From a virus, in IMG/VR virus record IMGVR_UViG_3300048549_001323, positions 1 through 24,060 of that record: a stretch of 24,060 nucleotides of DNA. The stretch is one strand, 5' to 3'. The notes beneath the pieces are model-generated. The model saw only the letters and a list, made by a program, of their open reading frames with translations, was not told the origin of the DNA and searched no databases. Below are positions 1-19,976 of the stretch, piece by piece. The position numbers and the translations under genes were made by a program. How positions within the stretch are numbered: the first letter of the stretch is position 1; every line of letters begins with the position of its first letter.

Positions 1-3000
1 CCTAATAAAGAACTTGCTTTATTACGCTCTGTACCAAATGTAAGATCCGAGACAATATCTTGTTTATTTTGATTATCGGCAAGATAGTCCATTATAAATT
101 GGTCTTGTTCTTTGCTTATACCAAGCCCAACTTTGCTTATTCTATCAACAACCGCTTGTGCTAAAGGCTCATAAGCCATAGCTGCTTCTGCTTGAAATGA
201 TTCAGGTGCATTGTTTACTTTACCGTCGTGCGTGTAGTTTTGGAATTCATTATTAATAGATCCCTCTTCAAATGCTACGTTTTCAACTATTTTAGAAGCT
301 TTAGCTTGCTGTACTTTACTTTTAACATCAGTATTAGAAAGCACATCTTTAACAGCGTTTACATTTTTAATAGCATCATCTGCAAAATAAAAGTCATTAT
401 AGCCTTCATCAACTTTTCCCTGCACCCAATTAGCTTTAGCTTGTGCAGTTCCGTCACCTAAACCAATAATGTTTTCTTTCTTAAAATCTAGCCCAGCTAA
501 TTTTAAAAATTCTTGTATTGGGCCAGCCGCGTCTGCAGGTCTGGCTGTAAGAACAAATAAATCTTCATTTCCCCTAGCAGCATTTATTTTTTGCGCTACT
601 TCAAACAAAGGTCCTTTCTTACCGTCTATAACCTTGCTAAATTCAGAAAAGTCAAATGTAGCCCCCTTATCTTTTAGCTCTTGATCTCTTTTAGCATATT
701 CGGTTGCGTTGAGCTTCCCAGTAGTCCCATCAGGCAGCGTGTATAGCACTTGTGAATTACTTTTTGCTAATGTATCATCAAAGTCAAATATTCTAATTTT
801 TTTAGCTTTTTTATCTTCTTCTGCTATTTCAGTAGCCGCCTTAGGCGTAGGTAATTTGAGATTTAGTTTTCGCTTCCCGTTAAAATCATTGTATTTTTTT
901 AACCACGTAAGCACTTCCGCCCCGTTTTCTAAGCCGCTTAAATCTAAATCTAACTCTCCCACTCCTAACGCTTTAGCAAGTTTTTCTCCAAAACTAGACA
1001 GAGCTGTCGCTGTAGGAATATCTCCTTGCTTTACCTGGTAGGAACGCATGAAATCTGATACGCTAGATATAAATTCTTCTGCTTGTTCTCTGGCCGCCGC
1101 ACCAGAATAATCTGTATCAACTCTCATTTGAGATTTTATACCAACTGCTCTTAATACAGGATCATTAGACTTTTCTAAAGTTAAACCTAAATCTTTAGCA
1201 ATTTTAACAACAGAGTTGTCATCTAGGGAATTTGTTATAGCATGCAAGCCTTCATGATGAACTACATTAGAGCCAACGCCCAAATCGCCTTTTCCCGCTG
1301 TTTCTTTTACATCAATTATAGTTTTTATACCCGGTATTGTTGTAGCATATACAGAACCATTGAGTAGCCCAGCTATATTCTCTTGAGTAAGGTCAACGCT
1401 TCTTCCTTCAAGATATTTTTTAGCTTCTTTTTTGGTGTCAAAAGTTAAATATTGAAATCCATTAAACTTATCCGGGTTATTATTAACGTATTGCCTTAAT
1501 TTATTACCCATAAAAAGCCTAACCTGCTTTGCCTGTACTTTAGCTTTTGCTTCCTCTAATTTTTGTATTTTTTCTTTATTTCGTTCAATTTGCCCTTTAC
1601 CATAAACTGAGGTTAAATCTGATTGAAACAATGGATTAATTATTTCTTTATTTTTATTTGCTAAAGTTTGTTGTTCAACTTGTATATCAAACATTTCCTC
1701 TCTAGCCTCGGGCTCGAAGTTTTTATAATTTGCATTATTAGCTATATTTTCAGCTTCATATAAAGCTGTAAGCTGATTATCTCTTTGTTTTTTACTGATT
1801 GAACCATTTTCAAAAAGAATTTTTATAGCATCTTCTTGGTTTTTAACATCGGATGATATATTGCCCTGCGCTTTTCTGGCTATTTGCCTTACACCTCTGT
1901 TTACTACTCTACCCCCTCCAACTAATGGGCCTGTAGATATTAACGCCTGAGCACCGGCTTCTCCTAATTGTTTTAAATCAAATATTTTTCTTCCGTCTAA
2001 ATATTTTGATTTACCAAGCTGCTGTTCAACCTCTACCATACCTATAGCTTCTTGTCCAGCTTCTGTTGGCATTTCAAAAAGTGATGCTTCTGCAATCTCT
2101 TTTAACTCTCCTTTAGCCGCTTTAACAGCGCCTTTATAATTTTTAGCAGCAAGGTTCCTAAACATAGAACCTATAGGTGCTTTAGCAATTTTTCCAACGC
2201 CAAACGCGTTACTTGCTAAATCTAAAGCAGCAATAGCTGTACCTGTTTTTTCTATTTGGCTAAAGTCTATTTCCCCACTTTTTACAATATTTTCTATTAT
2301 ATCTCTTTTTTCATCAGAAGTTTTATTGTCATAATCAGAAAATTTTTCTCTAGCTTTTTCTTCTGTAATTTCTTTTAAAATATTGCCAGCCTCTTGAGCA
2401 TACGTTGAGGTTCCAAAAGAAATCATAGCTAAAGCCATCTGACCCGCTTGCGTTCCTAAAATTTCTCCAAACTCACCTTTTTGTATGCCGTCTAAAATTT
2501 CTGGAGATTTACCAAACATTTTTAACTGCTCCTGGTACTTTTCTGAAGATATAAACTTTTCAACTCCTTTAGTAAACTTTTCGTTAGCTTTATTATTGTA
2601 GTCATCTACTGCATCTTTAACAGTAGGATAATTGTTTATGCCTCCTGAAATATTAACAACATCAACAGTGCCATCTTTTCTAGTAGTATAGCCTTTACCA
2701 TCAGATAATTGTTTTGATTTTTCTGCAAATGTAGTTCCTTCATCAAACTGATTAAGAGCGCCAAACACAGGCATACCAAGGTCCATAGCCTGGCCTATCA
2801 TAGGGGATAGTTTTAAAAGCCCTTTTTCAAAGCTATCTGGTAAAATAGCGCCTCCAATTTTTCCAAAAGTTTGGTCTGCTAAAAGTTTTATAATTTCTTC
2901 ATTAGCTTCTTTAAGGTCCTCTTCTGCTTTTATTTGGGCTTTTTGTCGGAGTTCGCGATCTTTATCAACAAAAGCTTCATGATAAGTACCTAACCTGTTT

Positions 3001-3590
3001 TTATAGCTGTTTGAGCCGGCTACCGCCTCTTGGATCAGATTATTTTGAAAAACACTAAATTCGTCGTTAGCTTTTTTGAACTCTTCAGAATTTTGAACAT
3101 TGTATTTTTTAATAAGCTCTTGCTCTTTTTGTTTTATTTCAGATTCTTTTAGTTTAAGAACCTTTTGGGGAAAGTCATTAAAATATTCATCTCCAAGCAA
3201 AACCATATTCATATTCTTCTTAGCTCCCGCTAAGTCATCTCCTACTTGTTTATTTACAATATCAAATATATCTTCTCTAGGAACCTCGTCTTCTTTTATA
3301 TTGTTTTGCTCCTCATAAGAAGTAAAGACTATAGGCTTTTTTTCTAGTTCAGATTGCGCAAAAGTACTAGGGGTTTGTGATTCCAAAGAACCACTTTCCG
3401 ACTGCAAATCCGTATCTACGGGTGTTTCTGCCACTACAGGTGCAGTCTCTTCCGCAGCGGCCTCGTCCTTTCCCACTTGAACGTCTTGAGTATTCTCAGC
3501 TTCGTATTTAGCTATAACCATGTTTATTGCCTCTTGGTTTTCTCCATTAGCAACCATAGATTCTATAATGCTTTTTAGCTCTTCGTTCAT
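1..3590 (-). CDS. Giant virion/ejection protein with HExxH peptidase-like motif and HAD hydrolase domain (partial, C-terminus beyond window)
   Basis: An open frame of 1196 codons runs from the ATG at 3590 off the left edge with no stop, so the C-terminus is missing. The start overlaps the upstream stop codon as TAATG. Residues 1-90 are acidic and low in complexity. Residues 90-600 are mostly helical, with Ala/Gly-rich hydrophobic patches near 380-395 and 445-570, as in phage proteins that are ejected with DNA. HEGLH at residues 779-783 fits the HExxH zinc-peptidase signature, and AEEF at 837-840 could supply the third ligand. Residues 932-1095 look like a HAD-superfamily phosphohydrolase: DFDDT at 936-940, T1015 in VLTARP, a lysine in GTAQAK, and FADDA at 1069-1073. 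I recognise this HAD block from large proteins of marine phages. The role is inferred: cargo protein delivered into the cell, possibly a 'polyvalent' protein. The substrates are unknown. Confidence 0.78.
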   Translation of the reverse strand, partial: MNEELKSIIESMVANGENQEAINMVIAKYEAENTQDVQVGKDEAAAEETAPVVAETPVDTDLQSESGSLESQTPSTFAQSELEKKPIVFTSYEEQNNIKEDEVPREDIFDIVNKQVGDDLAGAKKNMNMVLLGDEYFNDFPQKVLKLKESEIKQKEQELIKKYNVQNSEEFKKANDEFSVFQNNLIQEAVAGSNSYKNRLGTYHEAFVDKDRELRQKAQIKAEEDLKEANEEIIKLLADQTFGKIGGAILPDSFEKGLLKLSPMIGQAMDLGMPVFGALNQFDEGTTFAEKSKQLSDGKGYTTRKDGTVDVVNISGGINNYPTVKDAVDDYNNKANEKFTKGVEKFISSEKYQEQLKMFGKSPEILDGIQKGEFGEILGTQAGQMALAMISFGTSTYAQEAGNILKEITEEKAREKFSDYDNKTSDEKRDIIENIVKSGEIDFSQIEKTGTAIAALDLASNAFGVGKIAKAPIGSMFRNLAAKNYKGAVKAAKGELKEIAEASLFEMPTEAGQEAIGMVEVEQQLGKSKYLDGRKIFDLKQLGEAGAQALISTGPLVGGGRVVNRGVRQIARKAQGNISSDVKNQEDAIKILFENGSISKKQRDNQLTALYEAENIANNANYKNFEPEAREEMFDIQVEQQTLANKNKEIINPLFQSDLTSVYGKGQIERNKEKIQKLEEAKAKVQAKQVRLFMGNKLRQYVNNNPDKFNGFQYLTFDTKKEAKKYLEGRSVDLTQENIAGLLNGSVYATTIPGIKTIIDVKETAGKGDLGVGSNVVHHEGLHAITNSLDDNSVVKIAKDLGLTLEKSNDPVLRAVGIKSQMRVDTDYSGAAAREQAEEFISSVSDFMRSYQVKQGDIPTATALSSFGEKLAKALGVGELDLDLSGLENGAEVLTWLKKYNDFNGKRKLNLKLPTPKAATEIAEEDKKAKKIRIFDFDDTLAKSNSQVLYTLPDGTTGKLNATEYAKRDQELKDKGATFDFSEFSKVIDGKKGPLFEVAQKINAARGNEDLFVLTARPADAAGPIQEFLKLAGLDFKKENIIGLGDGTAQAKANWVQGKVDEGYNDFYFADDAIKNVNAVKDVLSNTDVKSKVQQAKASKIVENVAFEEGSINNEFQNYTHDGKVNNAPESFQAEAAMAYEPLAQAVVDRISKVGLGISKEQDQFIMDYLADNQNKQDIVSDLTFGTERNKASSLL
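306..797 (-). other. HAD-superfamily phosphohydrolase domain within the giant virion protein
   Basis: Residues 932-1095 contain all four HAD motifs in order. Motif I is D936-F-D938-D-T940 (nucleophile and acid/base), motif II is T1015 in VLTARP, motif III is the lysine in GLGDGTAQAK, and motif IV is D1071-D1072 in YFADDA. Every catalytic position is present, so the domain is probably an active Mg-dependent phosphatase or phosphotransferase. The segment between motifs I and II (FDFSEFSKVIDGKKGPL) matches a phage-specific version that I know from marine phage structural proteins. Confidence 0.78.
1242..1256 (-). other. HEGLH zinc-metallopeptidase-like motif within the giant virion protein
   Basis: The minus-strand codons CAT GAA GGC TTG CAT read H779-E-G-L-H783, preceded by VVH and followed by AITN. 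This is the HExxH pattern of zincin peptidases, in a hydrophobic-before, small-after setting typical of the active-site helix. A candidate third ligand is E838 or E839 in the segment REQAEEFISS, about 55 residues downstream. Metal binding and activity are not shown by sequence alone. Confidence 0.6.
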
Positions 3591-5491
3591 TAGATATTAT
3601 TTTTTAATTTTACGTATTGGTCGTATATTTCTTGCGCACTACGGGGGCCTTGCCCAGAAGCTTTTGTTTCTGTTATGGTTAAATCGCTAAGATTTACATC
3701 ATAAACTTCTTTTGCTAAAATTCTTAAAGTTTCTTCTCTATTTTTTCTATTAATCTTTAATTCTCTATTATTTCTAGGATTCTTTATAATTATAAAATTA
3801 TCATCATTTTTATCTATCACAGCCGGCCCTCCTATTACCATTGATAAGGCTCCTGGGTCTAAACCGTCGGGATTATTAAATGAGTTTAAAAAATTAGGAT
3901 TAGAGAATTTTTTGTTTAAATCTGTATAGTCTTTAGGTTTAGCTCCGCCTGTATCAGATGGTGGCATAGCTGGATCTTTTTTAAGCTGATAGGTAATTCC
4001 AGCTTTAGCGGCATATCTTTGTTTAATTTGATTTTGCAAATAATTGCTAACAAGATCTTTTGCGCTGTCCATGTCTCCTCTAAATTTATTTTCAAAAACA
4101 TCATATGGCATGCCTAGTCTTTCTGCTGCAATAGCCCTGATTGTGCCAGGGTTATCTAAAAATTGTTCTACTTGACTTTGTACAGCTGTTCCAATAGCCC
4201 CATCATAGGCCATAAGTTTTTGTTGAGCTGTCATCCCATTAGTTATCCATGTTTTATTATCAAGTATGCCTTCTGTTTTGCCATCACCGTTTAATATGCT
4301 ATTATAAAAACTTTCTGTATTTACTTTTTTAAGATACCTAAGTTTATTTGAACCAGCTAGATCAGAAATAGGTATGCTAACATCAGCGCCACTATTTGCT
4401 TTACCCACAAGGGTTGTTACCCCATTAATATTTTTTACAGTAAGGTCACCTCCCCCTTTATAAAGAGTATCTATTACGTCCATTACCTCAGGTTTCGTAC
4501 CGGCCGAAACTAAATCTTTGTTTTTTGCGTAATCTTGAATTAATCCAATAACAGATTTTGAACCCAAGTTCATTTGCTCAGTCCAATTTTTTAATTCATT
4601 ATATTTTTTTGTAAACTCTGAAGGCTTCATTTTGCCTCTTTGAGACATAAGCTGAGCCATTTCATTTACTTTTTCCTCAGAAACTTGTTCAATTGAGGAA
4701 TCGTATGCTGTATTACCAGACGGTGTTACTTTTACATCCCCAAAAGCATCATCTAAATCTTGTTGTTGTTGCCCCCAAACGCGTCTAGCGTAGTTTCTTT
4801 TTTTAATGCCAACATTATAGCCCTCAGCAAAAGCTGCACCCTCTTGACCTAAAAAAGATAAAGGTTGCATTTCCTGCTCTTCATCAACTCTTACGTTACT
4901 TCCTGTCATATAAGACTGAGGGGCCATTCTACTTGTTGTGCGCCTTTGACCAGTCGTCATTCGACCACCAGTATTTGTTTTTGGCTGTCCCGTAGTTAAC
5001 CGAAAAAGAGGGCCGCCTAAAAGCGCACTAGCTCCTTTAACAATTAATCCAGAATCAAGATATGCTGATGGGTCTAAACTATTTAAGTTTTCAGTTCTTA
5101 TAGTCGAATCGTAACCCTGTTGAGTATTTACCTTACCAAATAAATCTTTATAAGTAAAATCTTTTATTTGAATACCACCAAAGTCTGTTTGTCCTAAAAT
5201 GTCGTTAACATCCGATGCTGCCTTATCCGTTTCAGACATATTCCTGGTTTGAAGTGCTCTTAAAGAGTTATTAGCATCTCTTAAGTCATCTTTCATCATG
5301 GATTGCCTAGTGGCTAGCTCTGCATCAGTAGGTGGCTTACCTTCAACTTTTGCCTCTTCTTTGTCCTCGTTGACTAAATCATGTATAGTCGCGCCTAAAA
5401 GCCCAATACCTACGCCTAAATAATTTGGTTCTGAATATGCAGCTTCAATATCTCCGTATCTTAGCTGATCGCCTACTATTTTTCTTCCCAT
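3590..5491 (-). CDS. Putative internal virion (cargo) protein, 633 residues
   Basis: I do not recognise an enzymatic domain. Gly/Leu-rich segments lie at about residues 25-33 (YLGVGIGLLGA) and 150-165 (LIVKGASALLGGPLF). They are separated by a charged helical region, and a Thr/Arg/Gly-rich linker follows at about 165-200. The middle and C-terminal parts are mixed helix and strand with no cysteine. The ATG overlaps the stop of the 207-residue gene as TAATG, and its own stop overlaps the next start in the same way. These three genes are therefore probably translated together. Its place between a pore-like small protein and the giant cargo protein, after the neck and muzzle genes, suggests a protein packed in the head and ejected, like the inner core proteins of T7 or the cargo proteins of crAss-like phages. 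That role rests on gene order only. Confidence 0.6.
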   Translation of the reverse strand: MGRKIVGDQLRYGDIEAAYSEPNYLGVGIGLLGATIHDLVNEDKEEAKVEGKPPTDAELATRQSMMKDDLRDANNSLRALQTRNMSETDKAASDVNDILGQTDFGGIQIKDFTYKDLFGKVNTQQGYDSTIRTENLNSLDPSAYLDSGLIVKGASALLGGPLFRLTTGQPKTNTGGRMTTGQRRTTSRMAPQSYMTGSNVRVDEEQEMQPLSFLGQEGAAFAEGYNVGIKKRNYARRVWGQQQQDLDDAFGDVKVTPSGNTAYDSSIEQVSEEKVNEMAQLMSQRGKMKPSEFTKKYNELKNWTEQMNLGSKSVIGLIQDYAKNKDLVSAGTKPEVMDVIDTLYKGGGDLTVKNINGVTTLVGKANSGADVSIPISDLAGSNKLRYLKKVNTESFYNSILNGDGKTEGILDNKTWITNGMTAQQKLMAYDGAIGTAVQSQVEQFLDNPGTIRAIAAERLGMPYDVFENKFRGDMDSAKDLVSNYLQNQIKQRYAAKAGITYQLKKDPAMPPSDTGGAKPKDYTDLNKKFSNPNFLNSFNNPDGLDPGALSMVIGGPAVIDKNDDNFIIIKNPRNNRELKINRKNREETLRILAKEVYDVNLSDLTITETKASGQGPRSAQEIYDQYVKLKNNI

Positions 5492-6114
5492 TATTGTTCT
5501 TTAAAGCCTGCAACTCCGCCTCCAACTGCCATTCCAAGCCCCCCAAACAATTGTTGTGTTGCTTGGGACGTAGCTTGTTTAGCAGCATTTAATCTGCCAC
5601 TAGCTAAATTTAAAAGTTGTTGTTGTTGTTGATATTGTTGTGATTGTAGATCTTCTTCCCCCTGTGCCTCAAACTTTTGAAGTTGGGCGGCTTGGTTTAC
5701 TCTAGCCATTTGGTTAGCTTGCTCTTGTCTTGCGAGATCAGCTGATATGCCCTGTTTAGATGCTAAGGCAGCTTGCGCGATAGCTTGAGCACCGCCTGGG
5801 GCTCCGCCTGAAGCAATTGCAGCTTGCATAGACTGCGCTAAAGCTGCATCTGTTTGTTGTGCTTGAAATTGTGAAGCCTGTTGATTTACTGTTAAGTCCT
5901 CGGCAACATTTTCTAAACCTGCAAAAGGGTTAGTAAAACTATAATCCATTAAGGCTTGTCTTTGCGCATCAAACTCAGCGCGAGCTTGTCGCTCTTCTCT
6001 TCTTCTTCTACCTCCTCCAATTAATGATCCTGCTGCAGTGATTAGTCCGCCTGCTGCTCCTATAGCCATTCCTGCTGGGCCGCCTGCTGCCGCCGCTCCT
6101 AGTATTTTTCCCAT
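5491..6114 (-). CDS. Small Ala/Gln-rich internal virion protein, possible ejection pore component
   Basis: The product has 207 residues. Residues 4-35 are Gly/Ala-rich and hydrophobic (AAAAGGPAGMAIGAAGG), followed by a basic RRRREE cluster at 36-41. A long Ala/Gln-rich helical middle (about 40-185) includes QYQQQQQ at 160-166, coded partly by a run of CAA codons. A second Gly-rich hydrophobic stretch covers 189-203. Glycine-zipper-like ends around a helical rod are typical of small phage ejection proteins that insert into the host membrane (T7 gp14 type). I infer that role; there is no diagnostic motif. The start lies 2 bases after the stop of the GNAT-like gene (TAAATATG). Confidence 0.68.
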   Translation of the reverse strand: MGKILGAAAAGGPAGMAIGAAGGLITAAGSLIGGGRRRREERQARAEFDAQRQALMDYSFTNPFAGLENVAEDLTVNQQASQFQAQQTDAALAQSMQAAIASGGAPGGAQAIAQAALASKQGISADLARQEQANQMARVNQAAQLQKFEAQGEEDLQSQQYQQQQQLLNLASGRLNAAKQATSQATQQLFGGLGMAVGGGVAGFKEQ

Positions 6115-6116
6115 AT

Positions 6117-6521
6117 TTAGTATTGTATTATTAATTCGTAACTCGGTGTGTCGTCTACCGTAAATCCTGATTTTTTATATTTTTCTAATAATATGCCTGG
6201 TTTTGCCCAAGCAAATGAATACTTGTACCCCATATCTTTTGCAAAATCTGTTGTAAAGTTCACCAATAACTGTAATGCGTCACTTCTATCATTATCTTTA
6301 TAATACTTGTCTGAGATAACTATAGCTGGAATTGCAGTTTTTGAATTTGTTGTATAAAGAAACATAGCAGCTATAGCGTCATGCTCTTTACATACCATAA
6401 AACCACCGAGTCCGTTGTCGGGTAAAAAATCTCTTTGTGGTACTGGTTGATTGTACGCTTCCCACCACGAGGGCAGGAAGTTCCAATCTTGTTCAATTAA
6501 TTTTCTTATTTGTAATTGCAT
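6117..6521 (-). CDS. GNAT-like N-acetyltransferase family protein
   Basis: The 134 residues begin with IRKLIEQDWNFLPSWW, the usual beta1-alpha1 opening of this family. A conserved FLPDNGLGGFMV segment follows at 32-43, then the strands AAMFLYTTNS and AIPAIVIS. The helix DRSDALQLLVNF (78-89) stands where acetyl-CoA is bound in GNAT enzymes, and YKKSGFTVDDTPSYEL ends the fold. I know close relatives from the structural-gene regions of marine phages. The usual R/Q-x-x-G-x-G/A loop before the helix is not visible; it is replaced by YYKDNDRS. The enzyme could therefore bind the cofactor unusually or have lost catalysis. Its target is unknown; a virion or host-envelope protein would fit its place between the muzzle and ejection genes. 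The leader TAATTAAATTTA has no Shine-Dalgarno sequence. Confidence 0.75.
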   Translation of the reverse strand: MQLQIRKLIEQDWNFLPSWWEAYNQPVPQRDFLPDNGLGGFMVCKEHDAIAAMFLYTTNSKTAIPAIVISDKYYKDNDRSDALQLLVNFTTDFAKDMGYKYSFAWAKPGILLEKYKKSGFTVDDTPSYELIIQY

Positions 6522-6530
6522 TAAATTTAA

Positions 6531-9500
6531 TTAAGTTTGACTAATATAATATTCTGAGCTTACAGCAAATAATTCCCTTTTATCTGTATCAGGGTTTTTT
6601 AATCTTACTTTGGCAAAGAATCCTTTTACTCCAGCTACATCCTGTGTATTATTACTGTCTTGTATTAAAGGATAAAAACCCTCTGCATTAGGACTAGATC
6701 CAGGCTCTACAATAAAGACAGGCACCGTACCTACAATTGCGGCATGGTATTTACCTTCTTTAAAAAACCATAAGTCATCCATTAACCTAGCGTCTGTTAC
6801 AACATTTTCTTCTTGGTCAGCTAATATATTAACAATTTCCCAATCTTGACTTCCTTCATAGTTAATTGATAAAAAGTCTGAAATATATGTAGGATTATCG
6901 TTGAATATAATTTCTACCTCAGAATTATATTGTACTCCATAAAAGTTATTTCTATCGGCAGTATCAGAATTGTGTAAATAAATTTTACCATTTTTAAAAG
7001 TATAAAATTTATTATTTACAGTTACACCAGATTCTGGTATAAATGAGTATCGACTAGTCCAGCTTTGGCCTTTTAAACTATAGCCTAAAGTTAGGTTTCC
7101 ATCTTCTGAAGGAATTATTTCAGAGCCAATAGAGGCACTATTAAAGTCATATCCTTGCAATGATACTACATAAAGCTTTTTAGCTCCATCATAAGCACCT
7201 ATAAGCTTCGTAGCCGTGCCGATTCTATCTCTAAAAAAGTTTGACATTCCAATAGAGCTAATAGGGAATAACTGGCCGTTAGCAGGCGTTAGCTGCATAG
7301 CTACTCCTCGTTTTGCATCTGTAAAATATATATTATTACCAAATGTAGCAAAAGACTCAGGGTGTATGCTTATACCATACTCTCCTTGGAATGACATTGC
7401 TTGCCCTAAAACTAAATTAGTAGCTGTAACATTTACACCTTCATCTGCATTAAATAATGCATCTTTATCTGCTAATATTTTAAATACTTTGTCTTCGCAA
7501 AAAGCTAATAAATTAGTATCAAGAGCATGTAACTTTTGTATACTTCCGTAATTAGGTTCTAGCTCTTTAGTAATCCCATCTGCTAAATTAAATTTATTTA
7601 ATTCATTAATTCCTGTTCTAGAATTATATAAACCAGAAAATATTAATCCATATTTACGATGTTCTTCTGAATAATTAGCTTCTGGCGTATTAACTCTGAT
7701 ACCTTTCACTAAAGACGTAGAGTTAAATTTATCTTGTATATTGACAGATTCTAAATATATTTTATTATTGGAGCCGCCAACAGTAGCAATACAATTAGAC
7801 CAATCAAGTATGTTAGTTAACCCATGATCCGCTAAAGGAAATACACTTGAAGTTTCCCAATATAGATTAAGATTAGAATCGTTTCCTTGTTCTGTTTCAA
7901 AATCAAAAAACTTTAGTGTTTCAAGTTCTCCTTCTTCATCTAGCTCTGTTTGCCCCGTGGGCAAATTTGGAAATAATGTAATACCTGTTTTCCTTGGGAC
8001 TTTAACGAAAAAAGAACCTTTTAATTTTTTTTGCCCCGCTTCAGATAGCCCTAGTTTAAAAAACTTTATATCTACATCTGTTTGAAAATTCCAACCACCA
8101 GCTGGTGCAACATCAATACCTTTTGTAAAAATTACTTCATCGTTGTCATTAATTTGATTAGATAAAGTGATTTTAAAAATGTTTCGTTGTTCAACGTCAC
8201 CACCTGTACCAAATTCCATTTCATCAATAAGAATTTTTTTACTTTCTATACCGTCTACTTGAACAAATTGTAAAGCTAATCTTTCATTAAAACCTGTAAA
8301 ATCAATAGTCTGCAAAGAGGTATATGGGCTTTCTTTAGAATCAAAAGTTGTTGAACCACTTTGAGATGTTATATATTGATTAAGTTGTGTTATTATATAC
8401 TGAGTGTCCCATGTAACTCCTAAAGAATCTTTTATATAAAATACCTGGTTGTTAGCAGTATTGGGATTAACAGGGGTAAGTGCATTACTTAAATCAGTAT
8501 AACTAGTAATTATTTGTGCTTTATCATCTCTTATTGTAAACTTTTTAATTGCAGTTCTTTCTATAACTTGAGCTTTAACAATATCAGGAGCTTCGTTTTC
8601 AATATCTAGCACTGGTATTCTTGAAAGCTCTGTTATAACATTTCCCGCTGATGTAGCAAACCCATCTCTTTTAGGTATTAAAAAAGAGTCTTCTGTTATT
8701 TTGTTTCTATCTTTAGAATCAAATTGCAAATAAATATTAGCAGCCTCAGTATCTCCAGGATCGCCATCTAAATAACTATTAAAAGCTGTCATATTATAAA
8801 AATCTGTAGAAACATCTTTTACATAATATTTGTATGCGCTAGCCCAAACCGGCGGTTGACTGCTTATTTTAGACGTAAGCTTTATTCTTGAACTATAAGT
8901 AAAATCAGTTTTAATTAAAGAAGAATTGTCAGAGTTATTACCTACTTTTTGAGATAGTAATCCTCCTTGTCTTCCGTATTTGTCCATATAAACAACTCCT
9001 ACGTCGTAAGTTCTGTTTGTTTTTACAGAAGGCCCAGACGTTGGGTCAATAACACCTATAGTATCAACTTTTATTTTTAAACCATCACCACCTAAATCAT
9101 TTTTGCCTTGATTAAATTTAGTAACATAGTTACCGTATATTAATCTATTAGCTGTGAACTCTTGTGATTTAGCCTTTAAAGGAACAGCATCAAATTGTCT
9201 AGTTAATTCAGAATCAGGTAAAGCTATACCAAAAGATCTTTTAGATATTATAATACCATTTAAAAACCCGTTGCCTCTATCGGCTGGGTCAATTTCTATA
9301 GTTTTTAATATATATACTGTAGAAGATATTGATTCTGTGTATAATATGTCCACGGCAATAACGTCTTCCCTACCTTTTGGTATATTATTGAGTACAATGT
9401 TTTCTACATCATTGACCATAAATACGTTAAAACCTTTTTCGTATCTATCGTTTATTGACTCTATAGGCTTAGAAATAAACTGTACCTCCGTAAACGGGGC

Positions 9501-9587
9501 ATAAGGCGAATATTCGCCATCATCATATTTCCACCTATAGCTTATATAAGGAAATATTTTTTCAAAAGGTTTTACTTTTTCTGCCAT
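6531..9587 (-). CDS. Muzzle/tail-stabilisation protein, C-terminal segment (third of three genes)
   Basis: The product has 1018 residues. The N-terminus carries SYRWKYDDGEYSPYAPF at 16-32, a signature I know from the central part of large tail-stabilisation ('muzzle') proteins of crAss-like and marine podoviruses. The protein is beta-rich, with propeller-like strands such as NNIYFTDAKRG (751-761) and KIYLHNSD (868-875). A C-terminal block at 840-920 (GQSWTSRYSFIPESG, KFYTFKNGKIYL, RNNFYGVQYNS) is also typical of these proteins. The N-terminal part that should come before the RWKYDDGEYS motif is not in this gene. It appears in the two upstream genes. The gene starts 10 bases after the stop of the 1266-residue gene, in a different frame, behind the leader TAAAAAACAATAA. 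The expected location is the distal end of the short tail. Confidence 0.8.
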   Translation of the reverse strand: MAEKVKPFEKIFPYISYRWKYDDGEYSPYAPFTEVQFISKPIESINDRYEKGFNVFMVNDVENIVLNNIPKGREDVIAVDILYTESISSTVYILKTIEIDPADRGNGFLNGIIISKRSFGIALPDSELTRQFDAVPLKAKSQEFTANRLIYGNYVTKFNQGKNDLGGDGLKIKVDTIGVIDPTSGPSVKTNRTYDVGVVYMDKYGRQGGLLSQKVGNNSDNSSLIKTDFTYSSRIKLTSKISSQPPVWASAYKYYVKDVSTDFYNMTAFNSYLDGDPGDTEAANIYLQFDSKDRNKITEDSFLIPKRDGFATSAGNVITELSRIPVLDIENEAPDIVKAQVIERTAIKKFTIRDDKAQIITSYTDLSNALTPVNPNTANNQVFYIKDSLGVTWDTQYIITQLNQYITSQSGSTTFDSKESPYTSLQTIDFTGFNERLALQFVQVDGIESKKILIDEMEFGTGGDVEQRNIFKITLSNQINDNDEVIFTKGIDVAPAGGWNFQTDVDIKFFKLGLSEAGQKKLKGSFFVKVPRKTGITLFPNLPTGQTELDEEGELETLKFFDFETEQGNDSNLNLYWETSSVFPLADHGLTNILDWSNCIATVGGSNNKIYLESVNIQDKFNSTSLVKGIRVNTPEANYSEEHRKYGLIFSGLYNSRTGINELNKFNLADGITKELEPNYGSIQKLHALDTNLLAFCEDKVFKILADKDALFNADEGVNVTATNLVLGQAMSFQGEYGISIHPESFATFGNNIYFTDAKRGVAMQLTPANGQLFPISSIGMSNFFRDRIGTATKLIGAYDGAKKLYVVSLQGYDFNSASIGSEIIPSEDGNLTLGYSLKGQSWTSRYSFIPESGVTVNNKFYTFKNGKIYLHNSDTADRNNFYGVQYNSEVEIIFNDNPTYISDFLSINYEGSQDWEIVNILADQEENVVTDARLMDDLWFFKEGKYHAAIVGTVPVFIVEPGSSPNAEGFYPLIQDSNNTQDVAGVKGFFAKVRLKNPDTDKRELFAVSSEYYISQT

Positions 9588-9597
9588 TTATTGTTTT

Positions 9598-12500
9598 TTA
9601 CGCTTGTCTCCATATTAAATTAACACGTGTAAAGTACTGCTCGTAGGAACCACTGTTATATGTTGCGTCTGCATGAGCGAACTCATCGCTTGGGCGCACA
9701 AGGCCAATGTTTACAAATGTTTTTTGAGATGGAGGGTTATTTTTAGGTGTATATACTCTTAATGTATTACCATTTCTTATGATCGGGGCTGGCCAAGTGT
9801 CTGCTCCAGCGATTGAATTAGCAATATCATAAGGAGAAGTACTAGAGGTTGAAAATTCCCAGTCTTTACCAATAGAAGTTTTAACATCTATATCAATATA
9901 TTCATACCATTTTCCTGCTTCAGGGTTAGAAGGGTTAGCAATTAAATCAACGGGAATTGCTGTTTCTCTAAAAGAATAAACATTACTATTCCGATATTCT
10001 ATTTGTTTTATATCTACTAAGTCTAAAGAAATACGCCCAGAGCTAACATATTCTGTTGGGTTTAACGTTCTAAGAGCACCAACAAATGAAATTCCAAAAA
10101 AGTTGTCAACTGTTTCATAAAAAGCTACAAAATAATATTTTTTATTCGCGTTGTCTGTTGGGAAATCTATATTAAAAGGTAATTTTGCATTCCATTGTGT
10201 ATTAAATTCCATCCCAATCGAATATCCATTCGGCTCTCCACTTATAGTTACATTATATTTTGTTGTGCCTGCGCTTGGAGAATCGTATTCTTCCATAAAC
10301 TCCGCAGCACTAGACGGCTCCGTTAAAGATTGATTTTCTAAAAAATAAAAGCCGTGATTAATTATTTCTGGTTTAACACTGCTACGAGACCAAGCTGCCC
10401 TTGCAATTACTGCGGAATAGGTATTCAAGTCGTAAACGTAACTTTCAGAACCTGTTGTGGAGGCACCTAGCGTTGATATAATAAACTTTTTAGTGTAATT
10501 TGTTGATAATAATAAAGTTTTGGGTGTATTATCTATAGAAATATATGGCGATATAAATGTTTGTATATTACCGTTTGTATTAGTTTTAACAAATGTAGAA
10601 GCGTAATATTCTACTGTTGTAATCCCAGTTACATTTGCAGTAAAATTAATTTCTTCATTTTTACCATTTTCTTTAGTATTTGTTAAATCTAATTTTTTTT
10701 CAATTCTATTTGTCGCATTAGCCATAGTGGCAGCGTTGCCTGATTGATCTGAAAATGGGTTTGGAAATTCAGAAGCAGGCTTTAAATAAACACCTATTTC
10801 TGTAATAGAATAATTTAAAGAAGGCTTTTCAGCTTTGCATTTTACGGAAACACTTGTTTTTGTTAATGTAGATTTTATATTATCATCTATTATAGTAAGT
10901 ATTGGATCTACATCTACCGCGCTTAAATTAGCAGGTGTATCAACTCTTTTTGGCGTTGCCCATTTAGTTCCATTTAGTAAATTAATAAAAGGCTCACCTC
11001 CGTCTACCACTTTAGAATTAGCAGTTGTTGATAACGTCTGTTCTGGCTTTGCAAATACGGCTACATAATATGTAGTTTCGGCTGTCTTTCCAGTACAAGG
11101 TATTGTAATATCTAAAAAATCGTTGGCATTTTGATCTATATGCGCATTTATTGCTGAAACAGATTCTGTAGCCAAATGTTTAGTAGCTCCTGCTGCCCAA
11201 GCGTCTAAATCAGGACTTCTACCGTCTGGTAAAATGTTTATAGAAGGCGGGGGCGTTGTAGAAACATAAGCCCCAACCTCAACAATTCTTTTTCCGGTAT
11301 TACTTATTTCGCAAACAATAGTAAAATTATCGTGTTCTTTAACAGTAATAAATTCATTATTGCTGTTTGAATTTACTATTTTTGGGCCACCCACTAATGG
11401 TTTAATTAATTTAGGCTTAGTATCTGGGTTAACATTATCGTTTCTTGGATCGCCAAAAGGCCGGGAATAATAAGTAACTCCATTTTCTCCAATAATATAA
11501 GCCACCATTCTAAAGTTAGAAGATGAAATTTTAATCCCTTTTTCTATAAGATTGTAATATTCTTCTGTAGTTATAGCGGGTACAATTATAGGGTTTGTGG
11601 TTGTATACCTTCCTATATCAGGGTCACCTACGTTAGCGGTAAAAGTAAAATCTGATTTTGGTATAGTTAAAGTAAATGAATTATTAGGATTAACTATTGA
11701 AGGAATATCTGCCCATGCTCCATTTTCTGATTTTTCAATTTCAGCTTTTGTTATTGGCTTTGAAATTATTATGCCCGCGTCTACTATATTGGTATTATTT
11801 TTACCAGGTTTACCAATTATATCAAATTCTGCAGTTACTTCAATATTTTCTGTACCCGATGTAGACAAATTATATGTTGAAGGAAAATTCCATTCAGCTT
11901 TAAATACATTAAATAAAGGCTCTTCTGTATATTCGGGTTTTTTAAATTTTTTTAAACCCCCACACGATTCTATACCGCCAGAAATATTATAAGCAATGTA
12001 GTTTAATTCAGCCCCGTCCTCAAGGGTTAAATATGAAGCCGTGTTTAGACTAAATATTCCGCCTTCATCATAATTATCAGAGACACTAACTTTAACTGTT
12101 TTACCATCGGCAGATACTCCATTTGTAAAAGACTTTGTAATTATATCTTCTTTTACAGTTTCGTTACTGCTAAAATAAAAACCTAATTCAGTTATTTCTT
12201 CATATCTAAATGGTTTCAAATAATTATTACCATTTGAATGACCCAGTAAAATAGCTGAAGTAGCAGTATGCTCATTTACATTTAAAGTATGTACAGGAGC
12301 TGTTTTTTTAGTTTTATTTTGTATTTTATTTGTTACTGTATCTGAAAGAGACAGCGCATCGCCATATACAGTGCCATTTTTATTTGTTGCAAAAGGAACA
12401 TAGTAATAAATTAAATTTGGTACCGCTTCAAAACTAGAAATTAACTTTCCTGTTCCTTGGTCAAATGTTGCTGGAACAAAACTACCTGTATCTAATAAAT

Positions 12501-13398
12501 TTTGTACAGTAGGGGCAGTTTCATTATCATTAATTTTTCCTTCAGAAATATATAATCCTGAATTTGTTATTTTAGTATCGCCATCATTATTTAAAACAGA
12601 CTCAATTTTAATTATATTATTGGCTATTATTGGATCAGAAGATGTTAAATCTGAAGGAGCAGTACCCGCCGCAGCATTATTTAATATTTTAGATTTTGCA
12701 ATATTGCTATAAAATCTTTTTGAATTACCTTTTTTCTTACCAAAAGAAACAACAAAAATTTCGCCAGTAGACAAAGTTGCATTATAGTTTCCTCCAGAAG
12801 AATTAGTAGATTGTATACTTTCTTGTATGATAGCTATGCCACCGCCTAATTCTATATTTTTACTTGTAATTTCTACTGAAGAAGATCCAGTACCATTTAT
12901 AAGTCCTTCTATGGTATCTTCTGTAGCGGACCAAATAAACCCGCCTTCTACAAGTTGTCCTTCGTTTAATAATAATCTTCCTGTAAAAGACGTGTTTGAA
13001 GTACTATGTGCATCAATACTAATATCCGCATGGCCCTCGCTCGGGTTTGTTATTTTATTTCCATTTTCATCTATACCGTCAGTTTTACTTTTACTAACAC
13101 TATCGGTAGTTAAATCGTTAGCCCCAGTTCCAAATGCTTCATCAAACTTTTGAGTAGTCATTGAAGTAATGGGATGGTCTTTAACAACCGTTATATCGCC
13201 TTCCCTTATTTGTCTACCGTAAATATGTGTAGTTCCTGAAGAATGATCTACCTCAACCCCCTCAAAGTTGCCTTTAAATTTTTCAATATTAATTTTTTTA
13301 GGCTCGTTTTCATTGTCGGTAAAAAATAGCATACCATCAATTACATTAATTCCTGTAATTAATCTGTTTGAACTAAAATTTAGTATATTACTTGGCAT
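9598..13398 (-). CDS. Muzzle-derived virion protein with immunoglobulin/fibronectin-like repeats (second of three genes)
   Basis: The product has 1266 residues. Residues 4-40 (ILNFSSNRLITGINVIDG, MLFFTDNENEPKKINI) and 58-80 (HIYGRQIREGDITVVKDHP) match the middle of the N-terminal domain of large muzzle proteins, so this gene starts inside what is normally one protein. Residues about 130-1115 then hold seven modules. Each has a strand of the form I-x-x-x-G-aromatic-x-x-S, with the glycine near residues 153, 281, 406, 542, 709, 869 and 1016. A Tyr/Ala-rich strand follows (for example YYYVPFATNKNGTVYG at 330-345). The last 150 residues form a separate domain whose end resembles that of the 866-residue protein. 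The modules suggest a surface-exposed region at the tail, possibly for receptor or glycan binding, which is inference. There is no signal peptide and there are very few cysteines. Confidence 0.72.
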   Translation of the reverse strand: MPSNILNFSSNRLITGINVIDGMLFFTDNENEPKKINIEKFKGNFEGVEVDHSSGTTHIYGRQIREGDITVVKDHPITSMTTQKFDEAFGTGANDLTTDSVSKSKTDGIDENGNKITNPSEGHADISIDAHSTSNTSFTGRLLLNEGQLVEGGFIWSATEDTIEGLINGTGSSSVEITSKNIELGGGIAIIQESIQSTNSSGGNYNATLSTGEIFVVSFGKKKGNSKRFYSNIAKSKILNNAAAGTAPSDLTSSDPIIANNIIKIESVLNNDGDTKITNSGLYISEGKINDNETAPTVQNLLDTGSFVPATFDQGTGKLISSFEAVPNLIYYYVPFATNKNGTVYGDALSLSDTVTNKIQNKTKKTAPVHTLNVNEHTATSAILLGHSNGNNYLKPFRYEEITELGFYFSSNETVKEDIITKSFTNGVSADGKTVKVSVSDNYDEGGIFSLNTASYLTLEDGAELNYIAYNISGGIESCGGLKKFKKPEYTEEPLFNVFKAEWNFPSTYNLSTSGTENIEVTAEFDIIGKPGKNNTNIVDAGIIISKPITKAEIEKSENGAWADIPSIVNPNNSFTLTIPKSDFTFTANVGDPDIGRYTTTNPIIVPAITTEEYYNLIEKGIKISSSNFRMVAYIIGENGVTYYSRPFGDPRNDNVNPDTKPKLIKPLVGGPKIVNSNSNNEFITVKEHDNFTIVCEISNTGKRIVEVGAYVSTTPPPSINILPDGRSPDLDAWAAGATKHLATESVSAINAHIDQNANDFLDITIPCTGKTAETTYYVAVFAKPEQTLSTTANSKVVDGGEPFINLLNGTKWATPKRVDTPANLSAVDVDPILTIIDDNIKSTLTKTSVSVKCKAEKPSLNYSITEIGVYLKPASEFPNPFSDQSGNAATMANATNRIEKKLDLTNTKENGKNEEINFTANVTGITTVEYYASTFVKTNTNGNIQTFISPYISIDNTPKTLLLSTNYTKKFIISTLGASTTGSESYVYDLNTYSAVIARAAWSRSSVKPEIINHGFYFLENQSLTEPSSAAEFMEEYDSPSAGTTKYNVTISGEPNGYSIGMEFNTQWNAKLPFNIDFPTDNANKKYYFVAFYETVDNFFGISFVGALRTLNPTEYVSSGRISLDLVDIKQIEYRNSNVYSFRETAIPVDLIANPSNPEAGKWYEYIDIDVKTSIGKDWEFSTSSTSPYDIANSIAGADTWPAPIIRNGNTLRVYTPKNNPPSQKTFVNIGLVRPSDEFAHADATYNSGSYEQYFTRVNLIWRQA
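10069..12981 (-). repeat. Seven diverged Ig/Fn3-like protein modules in the 1266-residue virion protein
   Basis: The repeat is at protein level, not DNA level. The shared strand reads LVEGGFIWS, ITNSGLYIS, ITELGFYFS, IVDAGIIIS, IVEVGAYVS, ITEIGVYLK and IINHGFYFL. Spacing is about 125-165 residues. Most modules also have a later strand with Y-x-A or Y-Y-x-A/P and an N-x-G/T turn. This module type is common in Bacteroidota surface and phage proteins. Module borders are approximate. Confidence 0.7.
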
Positions 13399-13407
13399 AT
13401 TTTTTTA

Positions 13408-16008
13408 TTAATCATTTAACGTTAGCCTAACTGGCGCAAAATTAGACGTTGTTGTAACATCATTATTATAATTGTTGTCTATAAGTATATTACACCATAT
13501 TTGGCTTGGGTATGTAGGATCATTTGTTGGGTATATAGTTATACCCCCATTGCTTAATGAACTTGCGAAAGTACCAGTTTGGCTATAAGGCTCACTGTAA
13601 TCTACTGAACTTGGAGCTAGTCCACTGTAAGTAAATTTTACAGTTTTACTACCCGTAGGCCCAGTATGAACATACGCAGTTCCATCATCTATTACGCTTG
13701 TTGATCCCGTATAAGAGGATGAAGAAGCTACAGCTAGTTTATTACTCCAAGTCATTGTGGCAGCTGTAGGCGACGCATTAAAGTCTATTGACCCACTAAC
13801 TGCGCTACTTTGCCCTGTAATATTAAAGACGTATTGAATAGAGCTATAAATACCGTAATCAGTTACTGTTTCGCTCACTAAAGTAACCCAACTAGGGAGG
13901 TTTGTTGCACTAGAAGCGTTTGCATCCGTAAGCTTATATCCATCATTAGGTTGAACATTAACAGAAATTTGCTGTGTTGAACCCGGAGCAATACTCCAAG
14001 TATAACTAGTTAGGTGCGATGCTCCAATGCCAGCTACAAAATTGCTTCCAACACTGTTAAATGTTAAAGTATGATTATTTGCCGCTGTGGCGCCCGCTAA
14101 ACTAATAGCTACTGGGGCGTTGGAATATGTAATGCTTTTTCTTTGAGCGGCGGGAATAGCAATGCTAAAGTTTGCAGTTAAACTACCACCTGCACTAGTT
14201 GGCACGCCTGAATAACTTACAGTTATTAAATCACCACCATATGTTGCATTTTTAGTAGTAGAGTTAACACTGGAAATATATTTACCACTATCTGTTACTG
14301 TAATTGTATCAGAAGCGGTTTTAGTGCCAGTACCAGTAAAACTTATTGAGCTATCCGATGTTGGACTAATAGCTGCCGAAGGATTTGTAGAAGCTGTCCA
14401 TAAACCAGCAGACCAAGTAGTAACTACCTGCGTAGGAGTCGCGGCTATATTATAAGTTACACTGTCATCATTGGTAGGCGTATTAGATATAGCTATATCT
14501 ACTTGTATATATGTATGATTATCTCCGTTTGTATTTTGTGAAATACTAGCACTAGCCCACGCGGGTAGCCCTGTTACGGAAACAGAAGAAGCGTCAGCAA
14601 ATTCATAACCTGCGTTAGGAAATATATAAAATGTCTCTGTTGCTGAATATCCAGCTGTTTGTGTTGTCGTAAGCCCTGTATAAACATTTCCAGTAGAAAG
14701 AGCTGTTTGTTTTAATGTTGAATTACCTATAGATGCTGACGGTGTTAATGAGTAGCTATATGTTTGTGCTGCTCCCGCCGCTTGTTCAATTGTATCAAAA
14801 GCTTGTAAGTTAGAGGGCAAAAATACTGTTGACCCTACTGTTGCAACATCTACTCTTGGAAAACGCAATGGATCTCCTGTACCCTGCGCACTTATTGTTA
14901 TATTATGTGTAGCTGTTCCTGATCCATCTATTGTATGAGTTCCAGCTGGCGCTGTTGCTCCAACAGACCCGGTCAAAGTGTACGTAGCACCTGGAGTCCC
15001 AGATACTGAAAAGTTTTCAATTCCTCCTGTATTTACAACATTAGAATTAACAAATCCTAAGCTTGTTATTGAAAAAGCTGTATTTGTAGTTGTAAAGCTT
15101 TTAACTTCACCGTCTGTTGTTCCAATAGAATTAGTAGCAAAAGCTGCGTAACTAATTTGTTTGTCAGCAACAAGTCCCGTTATGTCAGCTGTAAAATTAT
15201 TTTTTATTGAAGAACTAGAAACAGTATTATTAGTTATACCAGCTCCACCTGTTTTTAATTCTGATAATGTTAAAGCACTACCGTCTGTTTTATATCCATA
15301 GTAAAACCCCTGCACGGTAACGTTAACACTATTATTAGTTAAAGAGCCAGCAATAGTAGCAGTTGTATTTGCTACGGTTTTTATATCTTCTGTAATAACC
15401 TCAGGCGCGGTTATAGTAGGTTGAGAGGCCGTAACACTTCCTGTTATAGAATCATTGCTATTTTTGTATGCATTTGGCACTTCAATATTTATAGATACAT
15501 CTTTATCAATTGAAGACCCTGTTGTATTTGGAGCAAATTTTGCTGTTATTGCTTTTGGGTTTCCAATTTTAGAGTTTACAAATATTGTTCCATCTTGTGC
15601 TATTGAAGCGCTAGGCGATGCTGTAGAAAAATTTAATTCTGTATTATTAGCAACTGATAAATTTGAGCTATCTATTACTATAGTACTTATAGAATTATTA
15701 ATTATATCATATTCGAATATCCCGTCAGCAACGTCGCCAGTAACAAAATAATATATTTTTTCTTCCTCCGGGTGAGCGTAAGAGCCCACAACCTTAGCAT
15801 TAGGATTTGAAGCGGCAGATAAGCCGTATATGTTTTGATTAGCTATTAGCTCGTTACCCTTTAAATTTTCAACAGCGCCTACATTGGCGTCTTCAGATGT
15901 GTCAACAGATATATTAAGGCCGTCTCTATATTGGCCTTGTTTTAATAACCTGTCATCTACATCTTTGTCCATTCTCGCGGCTTGGAACGTTCTTTTGCTT
16001 TCTGCCAT
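13408..16008 (-). CDS. Muzzle/tail-stabilisation N-terminal segment with Ig/Fn3-like extension (first of three genes)
   Basis: The product has 866 residues. Residues 5-53 carry the opening signature of large muzzle proteins of marine and crAss-like podoviruses: KRTFQAARMDKDVDDRLL, QYRDGLNISVDTSED, VGAVENLKGNE. KIYYFVTGD at 84-92 and GIFEYDIINNS at 96-106 continue this core, which stops around residue 160-180. A Fn3-like module follows at about 205-308 (QGFYYGY, then YAAFATNSIGTTDG). Several further beta-sandwich-like modules follow to 866, including an internal duplication. The C-terminal part is rich in Ser, Thr, Ala and Asn, as in exposed phage fibres. The gene starts 10 bases after the 314-residue ring gene. 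It ends with two consecutive TAA codons, and the next gene starts two codons later in the same frame. A tail-spike role for the extension is possible. Confidence 0.74.
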   Translation of the reverse strand: MAESKRTFQAARMDKDVDDRLLKQGQYRDGLNISVDTSEDANVGAVENLKGNELIANQNIYGLSAASNPNAKVVGSYAHPEEEKIYYFVTGDVADGIFEYDIINNSISTIVIDSSNLSVANNTELNFSTASPSASIAQDGTIFVNSKIGNPKAITAKFAPNTTGSSIDKDVSINIEVPNAYKNSNDSITGSVTASQPTITAPEVITEDIKTVANTTATIAGSLTNNSVNVTVQGFYYGYKTDGSALTLSELKTGGAGITNNTVSSSSIKNNFTADITGLVADKQISYAAFATNSIGTTDGEVKSFTTTNTAFSITSLGFVNSNVVNTGGIENFSVSGTPGATYTLTGSVGATAPAGTHTIDGSGTATHNITISAQGTGDPLRFPRVDVATVGSTVFLPSNLQAFDTIEQAAGAAQTYSYSLTPSASIGNSTLKQTALSTGNVYTGLTTTQTAGYSATETFYIFPNAGYEFADASSVSVTGLPAWASASISQNTNGDNHTYIQVDIAISNTPTNDDSVTYNIAATPTQVVTTWSAGLWTASTNPSAAISPTSDSSISFTGTGTKTASDTITVTDSGKYISSVNSTTKNATYGGDLITVSYSGVPTSAGGSLTANFSIAIPAAQRKSITYSNAPVAISLAGATAANNHTLTFNSVGSNFVAGIGASHLTSYTWSIAPGSTQQISVNVQPNDGYKLTDANASSATNLPSWVTLVSETVTDYGIYSSIQYVFNITGQSSAVSGSIDFNASPTAATMTWSNKLAVASSSSYTGSTSVIDDGTAYVHTGPTGSKTVKFTYSGLAPSSVDYSEPYSQTGTFASSLSNGGITIYPTNDPTYPSQIWCNILIDNNYNNDVTTTSNFAPVRLTLND
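13519..14643 (-). repeat. Internal two-domain duplication in the 866-residue virion protein
   Basis: Residues 456-525 and 678-752 align by eye: FYIFPNAGYEFADASS then GLPAWASAS, and VNVQPNDGYKLTDANASS then NLPSWVTLVS. Each is followed by a second domain that begins VVTTWSAGLWTAS or ATMTWSNKLAVAS. The period is about 222 residues. The two copies are diverged and the second domain aligns less clearly than the first. Confidence 0.6.
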
Positions 16009-18512: not shown

Positions 18513-19976
18513 CTACTTCAATAAGAAGAAGTTGTTGGCTCCTTGAGTAATCAAACATCTTTCAGATAAGAAGTTAACTCTCATTTCGTCCAAGCTAGAA
18601 GTGTATGCACCCCCTACTGATCCAGTAATCCAAGTTTTCATTTTTCTGTCATCAGTTTCAGAAGAACGATAACGTACGTGTAAAAATGGTCTTTTGATAT
18701 TTTTACCTAAATCCTGATCATATACAGTAGATGTACCTGCAGGAATAATAGTTCCTTCAACATCACCGAATCCGCCTCTTGTAGCAAAGTCATTTAGATA
18801 TTTCCAGTCAGTCTTATAAAAATCATAAGCACCTCTTCTAAATCCAGAAAATCCTAGGTTTAGGGCCATATCTTCAGAATTATTAAATACTCCGTAAGAA
18901 GTACCGCCTGCTCCATAAGAATTTTTAGAAGCCAATACATCATCAATAGCTAGAGACAAAGCTCTATTGCTATAAATCATATTTTCTTCAATAGCTCCAT
19001 TCTTATCTAGTTGCTTAAGGATGTTATCAAAACCAACCATAGTTGGAGTTCCTCCACCTAATAAATCTGTAGATAGTCCGTCATATACATTACCTCTTGC
19101 TTCTAATGCAGCAAAGAAACCTTCAGATCCAGTGTAGCTTGCAGCAGCAGTACCAGCAGAACCAGTTTTCTTTACTGACTCTACCATAGACATCTCTAGG
19201 TAATCTTCAAATCTTAGTCTAGTTTCGTGCTCAGACTTTAGGTACCATAGGTAACCAGAAGCACCATTTTCAGAAGTAACTTCGATCCAACCAATCTGAG
19301 CAGTGTCAGAACCATTGATAGCGTAGTTATCTTTTAGAATAATAGGCTTGTTAGTATAAGAGCTGTAGTCAGAATCCAAAGATCCAACCATTCCGTCAGT
19401 TCCTTTAGCAAACTCAGAACCGTATACTAGTACGTTTGCTTTTGCGTAAGAAGCAGCACCTGTAACACCTGTCCAGTCAGCAGCTGTATAAGCAACAGCA
19501 GTAAAAGTTCCGGTATCACCAGCAGCAGCAGCTCCAGCAACAGTAACGACCCCTTTAACTACAGGTCCTGTAGCAGCGCCTCCAGAAGTTAGTCCTTGTA
19601 CCATAATGGTTTGTCCAGCTCTAACAACAGGAGCATCTCCTGCAGCATAAGCAGTCCCGTCAGGCTTAGCGGCAAAAGTGACTGTAAATATAGATTCTCC
19701 AGTACCGCTAGCAGTGCCAATAGCTACGTTGTCGTAACGTGTGTGTAGTCTTCCTTGCTCAATCCATCTGATTTCGTCAGAAGTAGATGGCATTTCAGCT
19801 GATACCATACGTAGGAAAGAAGAGATAGAACGGTTTCCGTAGATCTCAGCTTCTTTTTCGTATACATCAGGTAAAAATTGTTTTGTAAAATCGAAATCGG
19901 TAATATAATTACCTTGAAATAATGATCCCTTGCTAGATGAAGGGGTTAAGTTTTCAATGCCAGTTGATATAGCCAT
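18513..19976 (-). CDS. Major capsid protein
   Basis: The product has 487 residues, the usual length for crAss-like capsid proteins (about 490). The N-terminal block at 34-78 (FLPDVYEKEAEIYGNRS, FLRMVSAEMP, WIEQGRLH) and the end (YKTDWKYLNDFATRGGF at 387-403; FLSERCLITQGANNFFLLK at 469-487) are patterns I know from capsid proteins of crAss-like and Bacteroidota podoviruses. The fold should be HK97-like. Residues about 86-185 form an Ala/Gly/Thr-rich, strand-rich segment that looks like a variable insertion. Base use differs from the neighbours: the 60 bases from 19441 have 29 G+C, against 15 in the 60 bases from 22681 in the portal gene. This fits strong expression. It ends in TAG and is followed by the terminator hairpin. 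The scaffold-like gene upstream is 17 bases away. Confidence 0.93.
   Translation of the reverse strand: MAISTGIENLTPSSSKGSLFQGNYITDFDFTKQFLPDVYEKEAEIYGNRSISSFLRMVSAEMPSTSDEIRWIEQGRLHTRYDNVAIGTASGTGESIFTVTFAAKPDGTAYAAGDAPVVRAGQTIMVQGLTSGGAATGPVVKGVVTVAGAAAAGDTGTFTAVAYTAADWTGVTGAASYAKANVLVYGSEFAKGTDGMVGSLDSDYSSYTNKPIILKDNYAINGSDTAQIGWIEVTSENGASGYLWYLKSEHETRLRFEDYLEMSMVESVKKTGSAGTAAASYTGSEGFFAALEARGNVYDGLSTDLLGGGTPTMVGFDNILKQLDKNGAIEENMIYSNRALSLAIDDVLASKNSYGAGGTSYGVFNNSEDMALNLGFSGFRRGAYDFYKTDWKYLNDFATRGGFGDVEGTIIPAGTSTVYDQDLGKNIKRPFLHVRYRSSETDDRKMKTWITGSVGGAYTSSLDEMRVNFLSERCLITQGANNFFLLK

Follow-up and report, generated by a model that had tools for sequence, protein, structure and literature searches.

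Zincin-type and HAD phosphatase domains in a giant, very probably virion-borne protein of a crAss-like phage

We analysed a viral contig of 24,060 nt (IMG/VR record IMGVR_UViG_3300048549_001323), the whole of which is called the window here, and particularly the giant gene at its left end, which appears to encode a polyvalent cargo protein with two enzyme domains. This open reading frame occupies positions 3..3590 of the minus strand, starts with an ATG at 3590 and has 1196 codons with no stop before the contig end; the C-terminal part of the protein lies past it. An earlier note on this DNA had reported a frame of more than 1196 residues, and its coordinates were right, the minus strand being left unstated. 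It had also expected more domains beyond the window, and actually a full-length relative (locus L003) reaches 2397 residues. From the N-terminus, the visible part of the protein contains a linker patch (residues 37-70, positions 3381..3482), a zincin-like metallopeptidase core (residues 706-854, positions 1029..1475), a haloacid dehalogenase (HAD) phosphatase domain that looks like a portable module (residues 930-1097, positions 300..803), and a last segment (residues 1098-1196, positions 3..299), all of them encoded on the minus strand.

Relatives of the giant were collected by scanning with two queries. The C-terminal part of L003 gave 80 loci, to which the HAD domain added 80 viral and 15 genome loci. 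The HAD matches in bacterial genome contigs, mostly short contigs of metagenome-assembled genomes with the same giant architecture, are probably phage sequence. A tblastn search of the giant against 50,697 phage records gave no match.

The zincin-like domain was defined by alignment, by an AlphaFold model and by its structural neighbours. Its zinc-binding motif HEGLH lies at residues 779-783 (positions 1242..1256), where the earlier note had placed it, together with a possible third ligand at 838-839. In a first alignment of 33 segments picked by eye around HExxH, with the HAD rows aligned separately, H779, E780, H783 and E839 were the sole invariant columns. Because these rows had been picked by eye, a profile search of all the giants was run, which matched 121 segments, 119 of them with HExxH. 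The earlier note had named a lack of conservation of HEGLH in relatives as an outcome that would speak against it; in these segments H779, E780 and H783 were constant wherever aligned. The position of E839 (1074..1076) held Glu in 117 of the 119 HExxH rows and the remaining 2 were gaps, with no substitution. E838 varies, and therefore of the two residues proposed as third ligand only E839 is retained. The H-E-H-E set is kept in relatives down to about 14% identity, the median pairwise identity of the domain being 19%.

The earlier note had also proposed structure prediction as a check. In the model (mean pLDDT 80.7, and >90 across most of the core) a zincin core is predicted, in which a three-stranded sheet is followed by the HEGLH helix (131-141, model numbering) and then by the helix of E839 (188-209), so that the two sites would stand on successive helices, as in gluzincin-type enzymes. 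When the model was compared by VIA-align, metallopeptidases headed the list, namely the catalytic domain of lethal factor (Z 5.3-5.6), PPEP-1/Zmp1, IrrE and collagenase; the top rows had Z of 3-6.6, all below 8, and one enzyme class dominated them. Furthermore, minigluzincins were among the few sensible Foldseek hits, and the metallopeptidases of polyvalent proteins have been tied to the same lethal-factor fold (PMC5512222). At the level of sequence, then, the assignment to zincin-type peptidases is solid, with a Glu conserved as third ligand, and zinc-dependent proteolysis is what it predicts.

The HAD domain, recognised by profile matches, alignment and model, had been described as carrying all catalytic motifs at 932-1095, and we found it intact at 930-1097. 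Motif I is DFDDT (residues 936-940, positions 771..785) and motif IV is formed by D1071 and D1072 (positions 375..380). Residues D936, D938, T940, T1015, R1017, K1052, D1071 and D1072 show essentially no variation across about 148 relatives, which gives the DxDxT of motif I, the Thr/Ser of motif II, the Lys of motif III and the acidic motif IV. This is the best conserved domain of the protein, with a median pairwise identity of 56%, against 47% for a C-terminal domain treated below and the 19% of the zincin. Its AlphaFold model (pLDDT 91.6) has the Rossmann-like HAD fold. VIA-align returned 241 chains at Z >=8 with HAD enzymes leading, and the first seven places were taken by the 3'-phosphatase of T4 Pnkp and by bacterial Pnkp1 (Z 11.3-12.4). 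PHROG 415, 'polynucleotide kinase', matched 19 of 34 HAD members. The domain is thus more like a polynucleotide 3'-phosphatase than like a phosphatase of proteins or metabolites. It is solid as a HAD, and as to its predicted substrate it leans towards a Pnkp-type 3'-phosphatase.

A P-loop kinase is nested in the HAD, behind motif I, in at least 18 relatives, while one more has it just behind the HAD. The nested kinase matches AAA_33 (4e-12), Zeta_toxin (3e-10) and the PHROG polynucleotide kinase family, and AAA_33 outscores Zeta_toxin for 2 of 3 nested kinases. The loci with a kinase inside the HAD are L042, L046, L047, L050, L051, L054-L056, L058, L064, L069-L071, L073, L075, L076, L081 and L083.

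By sequence, both active sites are intact and conserved, and their pairing is recurrent. Among the 125 non-redundant HAD-bearing giants with enough upstream sequence, 118 have an HExxH 846-1232 residues upstream of the HAD, whereas composition would give 0.008 per protein; a chance origin of the motif was therefore rejected. HExxH is also carried by 16 of the 20 giants which lack the HAD. In 130 of 134 non-redundant giants the end of the HAD lies 3-33 residues before a C-terminal domain of 650 aa, for which neither a Pfam family nor a PDB match was found. This domain (L003 5600-7540 and relatives) is strongly conserved and common to nearly all relatives. The full-length giant of L003 carries HEYMH at the same place as HEGLH and has no HAD. 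It has an extra HEKQH near its C-terminus, within the sequence HEKQHVKD of a second metallopeptidase-like domain (PHROG 16532) that lies at the very C-terminus of the giants of the window's nearest relatives (L003 aa 2283-2383; also L005-L008, L024 and L092).

The usual domain order is broken in the window, where the HAD comes directly after the zincin. L092, whose major capsid protein (MCP) is 83% identical to that of the window, has a HAD which is 91-92% identical but located before its zincin, and L003, with an MCP 79% identical, lacks the HAD. At the DNA level the window and L092 share 88% identity over the HAD only (nt 299-819), while the window and L003 share 88% over the next 301 nt. 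The switch falls at nt 299-301, where residues 1098-1196 sharply adjoin the HAD; residues 1099-1196 are 96% identical to residues 935-1032 of L003. Since the two nearest relatives either carry the HAD elsewhere or lack it, the HAD is likely a shuffled module, an interpretation of the sequences that rests on two independent contigs with displaced HADs. The HAD/1098 junction at nt 299-301 might possibly be an assembly join in the contig of the window.

Directly past the point where the window ends, L003 (aa 1033-1084) resembles sigma-70 region 2 by eye (GLAKTYNPEVGSFGGYAKSQLANRAIRVLDE). A sigma-like identity of the segment after the HAD is not claimed, as Sigma70_r2 reached E = 0.17 at best in Pfam and PDB gave no match.

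Regarding the gene neighbourhood, the minus-strand order upstream of the giant is a 633-aa, a 207-aa and a 134-aa gene, the muzzle, two large genes, two ring/adaptor genes, the MCP, a scaffold-like gene and the portal. The earlier note had put the giant after two ejection-protein-like genes, and these do directly precede it: the 633-aa gene (3590..5491, minus strand), assigned by synteny with cargo genes of crass-like phages, and the 207-aa gene (5491..6114, minus strand), with a Gly/Ala-rich N-terminus and relatives in 32 related loci. The muzzle gene (6531..9587, minus strand) matches PF25729, the muzzle C-terminal domain, above the cut-off, and the crass muzzle domain is present in 24 of 25 related contigs. 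The MCP (18513..19976, minus strand; phrog_13704) is 54-83% identical to the MCPs of 26 of 27 related contigs. For both portal and MCP, matches covering >=80% of the length were obtained in phages of Flavobacterium, Cellulophaga and Maribacter, including records of Pervagoviridae (Callevirus), Pachyviridae (Baltivirus) and Elemovirus. With a crass muzzle, MCP and portal in crass order, the window phage is, on gene content and order, a member of one Crassvirales clade. From the isolation sources of its named relatives we infer a marine origin.

Two other observations concern this region. The 134-aa protein between the muzzle and the ejection genes (6117-6521, PHROG 17252) is conserved in named phages, and its counterpart in MW202828 is annotated as an N-terminal acetyltransferase complex subunit. 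Between the muzzle and the ring genes (9598-16008) there are two large repeat-rich proteins of 1266 and 866 aa, Ig-like by eye; at the equivalent position the named phages examined do not have them.

In Cellulophaga phage phi18:3 the slot of the giant is taken by gp123, which an annotation based on tandem mass spectrometry names as a virion structural protein; in phi38:1 and elemo the same-slot gene is likewise labelled structural. In crAss001, where the muzzle and ring proteins are likewise followed by two medium-sized cargo genes and then by giant genes, the cargo proteins gp45-gp47, gp49 and gp50 were verified in virions by mass spectrometry (PMC10172136). By synteny with the virion-verified slot of phi18:3, the giant is very probably virion cargo. 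The head-packed protein of the earlier note thus agrees with the cargo slot, and packing itself is a prediction from it. The giants in the same slot of named phages (MW202828, elemo, Panino, phi38:1 and phi18:3) show weak or local similarity at most. Those of elemo (HEIFH) and MW202828 carry HExxH, which was not found in those of phi18:3, phi38:1 and Panino. Unlike the window's protein, the giants of crAss001 are annotated as RNA-polymerase-associated; for the polymerase active-site motif DxDGD, D.DG[DE] is scattered in some giants and was not recognised in the visible part of the incomplete window protein.

The linker patch near the N-terminus, which ends in LQSESGSLES, is kept in otherwise divergent giants. 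Similar motifs, such as SESGSLES and SENTSLDL, occur at residues 57-93 of giants whose N-terminal domains are unrelated (L002-L186), and a strict pattern was found in 16 of 108 giants against 0.35 in shuffles. The giant of Maribacter phage Panino begins with a stretch similar to the motif. The linker motif might serve as a signal for packaging, ejection or processing.

On balance we incline to the view that this marine crAss-like phage carries the giant in its virion as a polyvalent cargo protein, one that combines a zincin with a Pnkp-like 3'-phosphatase HAD. It would travel in the head or tail of the particle and be ejected into the host cell either together with the DNA or ahead of it. In the zincin, H779, H783 and E839 would bind zinc and E780 would act as the base, and the enzyme would most likely cut the giant itself, or a packaging or host partner, freeing modules. 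The released HAD may then restore 3'-OH ends on nucleic acid broken at entry or by host defence. In this view the HAD is a self-contained cassette which changes position within the protein. More tentatively, we propose a virion-delivered end-healing module, in which an injected Pnkp-like 3'-phosphatase, joined in some lineages by a 5'-kinase nested in the HAD, is part of a self-processing giant and, before phage gene expression, heals ends left by anticodon nucleases of the host or by defences that damage DNA. It is part of the same tentative proposal that the HAD cassette is traded between cargo-protein positions even where the capsid proteins of the phages are about 80% identical.

Several results weigh against this interpretation. 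The next HAD after the Pnkp rows stands at Z 11.2, a small gap, and an hhalign profile comparison of the HAD with T4 Pnkp aligns motif I only, with 33% probability. Foldseek gave no hit significant by E-value for the zincin model. The giant had no tblastn match in the phage records searched. RNA ligase (PF09414), considered as a partner, was found in just 2 of 25 related contigs, and therefore the phages do not in general encode all of an RNA repair pathway.

The earlier note had proposed that the two domains process host proteins and phosphorylated substrates at once, and this is not supported as stated, because zincins of this class, as has been argued, act on their own polyprotein no less often than on host proteins (PMC5512222) and the HAD resembles Pnkp phosphatases more than protein phosphatases. 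A version of it, which we find rather doubtful, would keep the same cargo protein with the HAD as a protein or small-molecule phosphatase effector (for phosphotyrosine, phosphoserine or nucleotide) and the zincin as a host-directed protease. For the HAD, the best Foldseek hits do include Lem4 and Ceg4, both Legionella effectors, and human phosphoserine phosphatase, DUF2608 matches 17 of the 34 HAD members at its cut-off, and host-directed zincin effectors are allowed by PMC5512222. However, VIA-align ranks the Pnkp phosphatases over Lem4 (12.4 versus 9.9), PHROG 415 and the nested kinase indicate nucleic-acid ends, and host-directed proteolysis is without specific support here.

The nested kinase could also be read as a zeta-toxin-like cell-wall kinase with the HAD as its partner or counter-enzyme on phosphosugars, so that the module would act on the cell envelope during DNA entry. 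The Zeta_toxin match and the zeta-toxin-like kinases of polyvalent proteins, whose proposed targets are peptidoglycan precursors (PMC5512222), agree with this, but the preference of 2 of 3 kinases for AAA_33, the PHROG polynucleotide kinase matches and the visible part of the window protein, which has no kinase, make it improbable. We give equally little credit to the idea that both domains are structural relics in what is mainly an ejection-channel or tape-like protein, with the enzyme folds used in packaging only. It would suit a family defined by a 650-aa C-terminal domain of no known family, and the region of the N4 virion RNA polymerase with the metallopeptidase domain is needed for encapsidation (PMC5512222); nevertheless, catalytic residues of both domains that are invariant in >100 divergent copies would be unexpected for relics.

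Our preferred reading of an injected zincin and Pnkp-like HAD has parallels in known systems. Polyvalent proteins (Iyer et al. 2017, PMC5512222) are also giant multidomain proteins encoded among phage structural genes, with a zincin-like metallopeptidase hub (the HExxH helix and a downstream Glu helix) and other enzyme domains. At least two disparate enzyme domains in one phage protein, which define them, are found here as zincin and HAD, plus the kinase in some relatives. In contrast to them, the HAD is here the most conserved domain, is shuffled and nests a kinase in some members, and a 650-aa C-terminal domain without a Pfam family is present. The main text of PMC5512222 names no phosphatase or haloacid dehalogenase. 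The N4-like virion RNA polymerase is likewise a giant ejected protein with an HExxH domain and then a large helical domain of unknown fold (PMC12633501, PMC5512222), whereas family searches of the giants here did not report a polymerase domain of the N4 type. The 3'-phosphatase domains of T4 Pnkp (pseT) and bacterial Pnkp1 are the solved folds closest to the HAD, and relatives of the window's protein carry the P-loop kinase in the same module; however, in T4 this is a stand-alone bifunctional enzyme and not a phosphatase inside a giant cargo protein, and the sequence likeness is limited to motif I. Injected polyvalent proteins with a zincin or with two enzymes are therefore already known, and the novelty is the HAD, its conservation and its shuffling.

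Injected proteins act before phage transcription, at the time of greatest danger from host defences. If nucleic-acid ends are what the HAD heals, repair would be carried in the particle, whereas T4 makes its repair enzymes after entry. The nested kinase-in-phosphatase is an unusual enzyme architecture in its own right. The pairing of zincin and HAD recurs in >100 related marine phages, and the giant family is widespread in marine viromes with its catalytic residues conserved. Because this family is absent from the 50,697 phage records searched, a large and testable group of enzymes has been missed so far.

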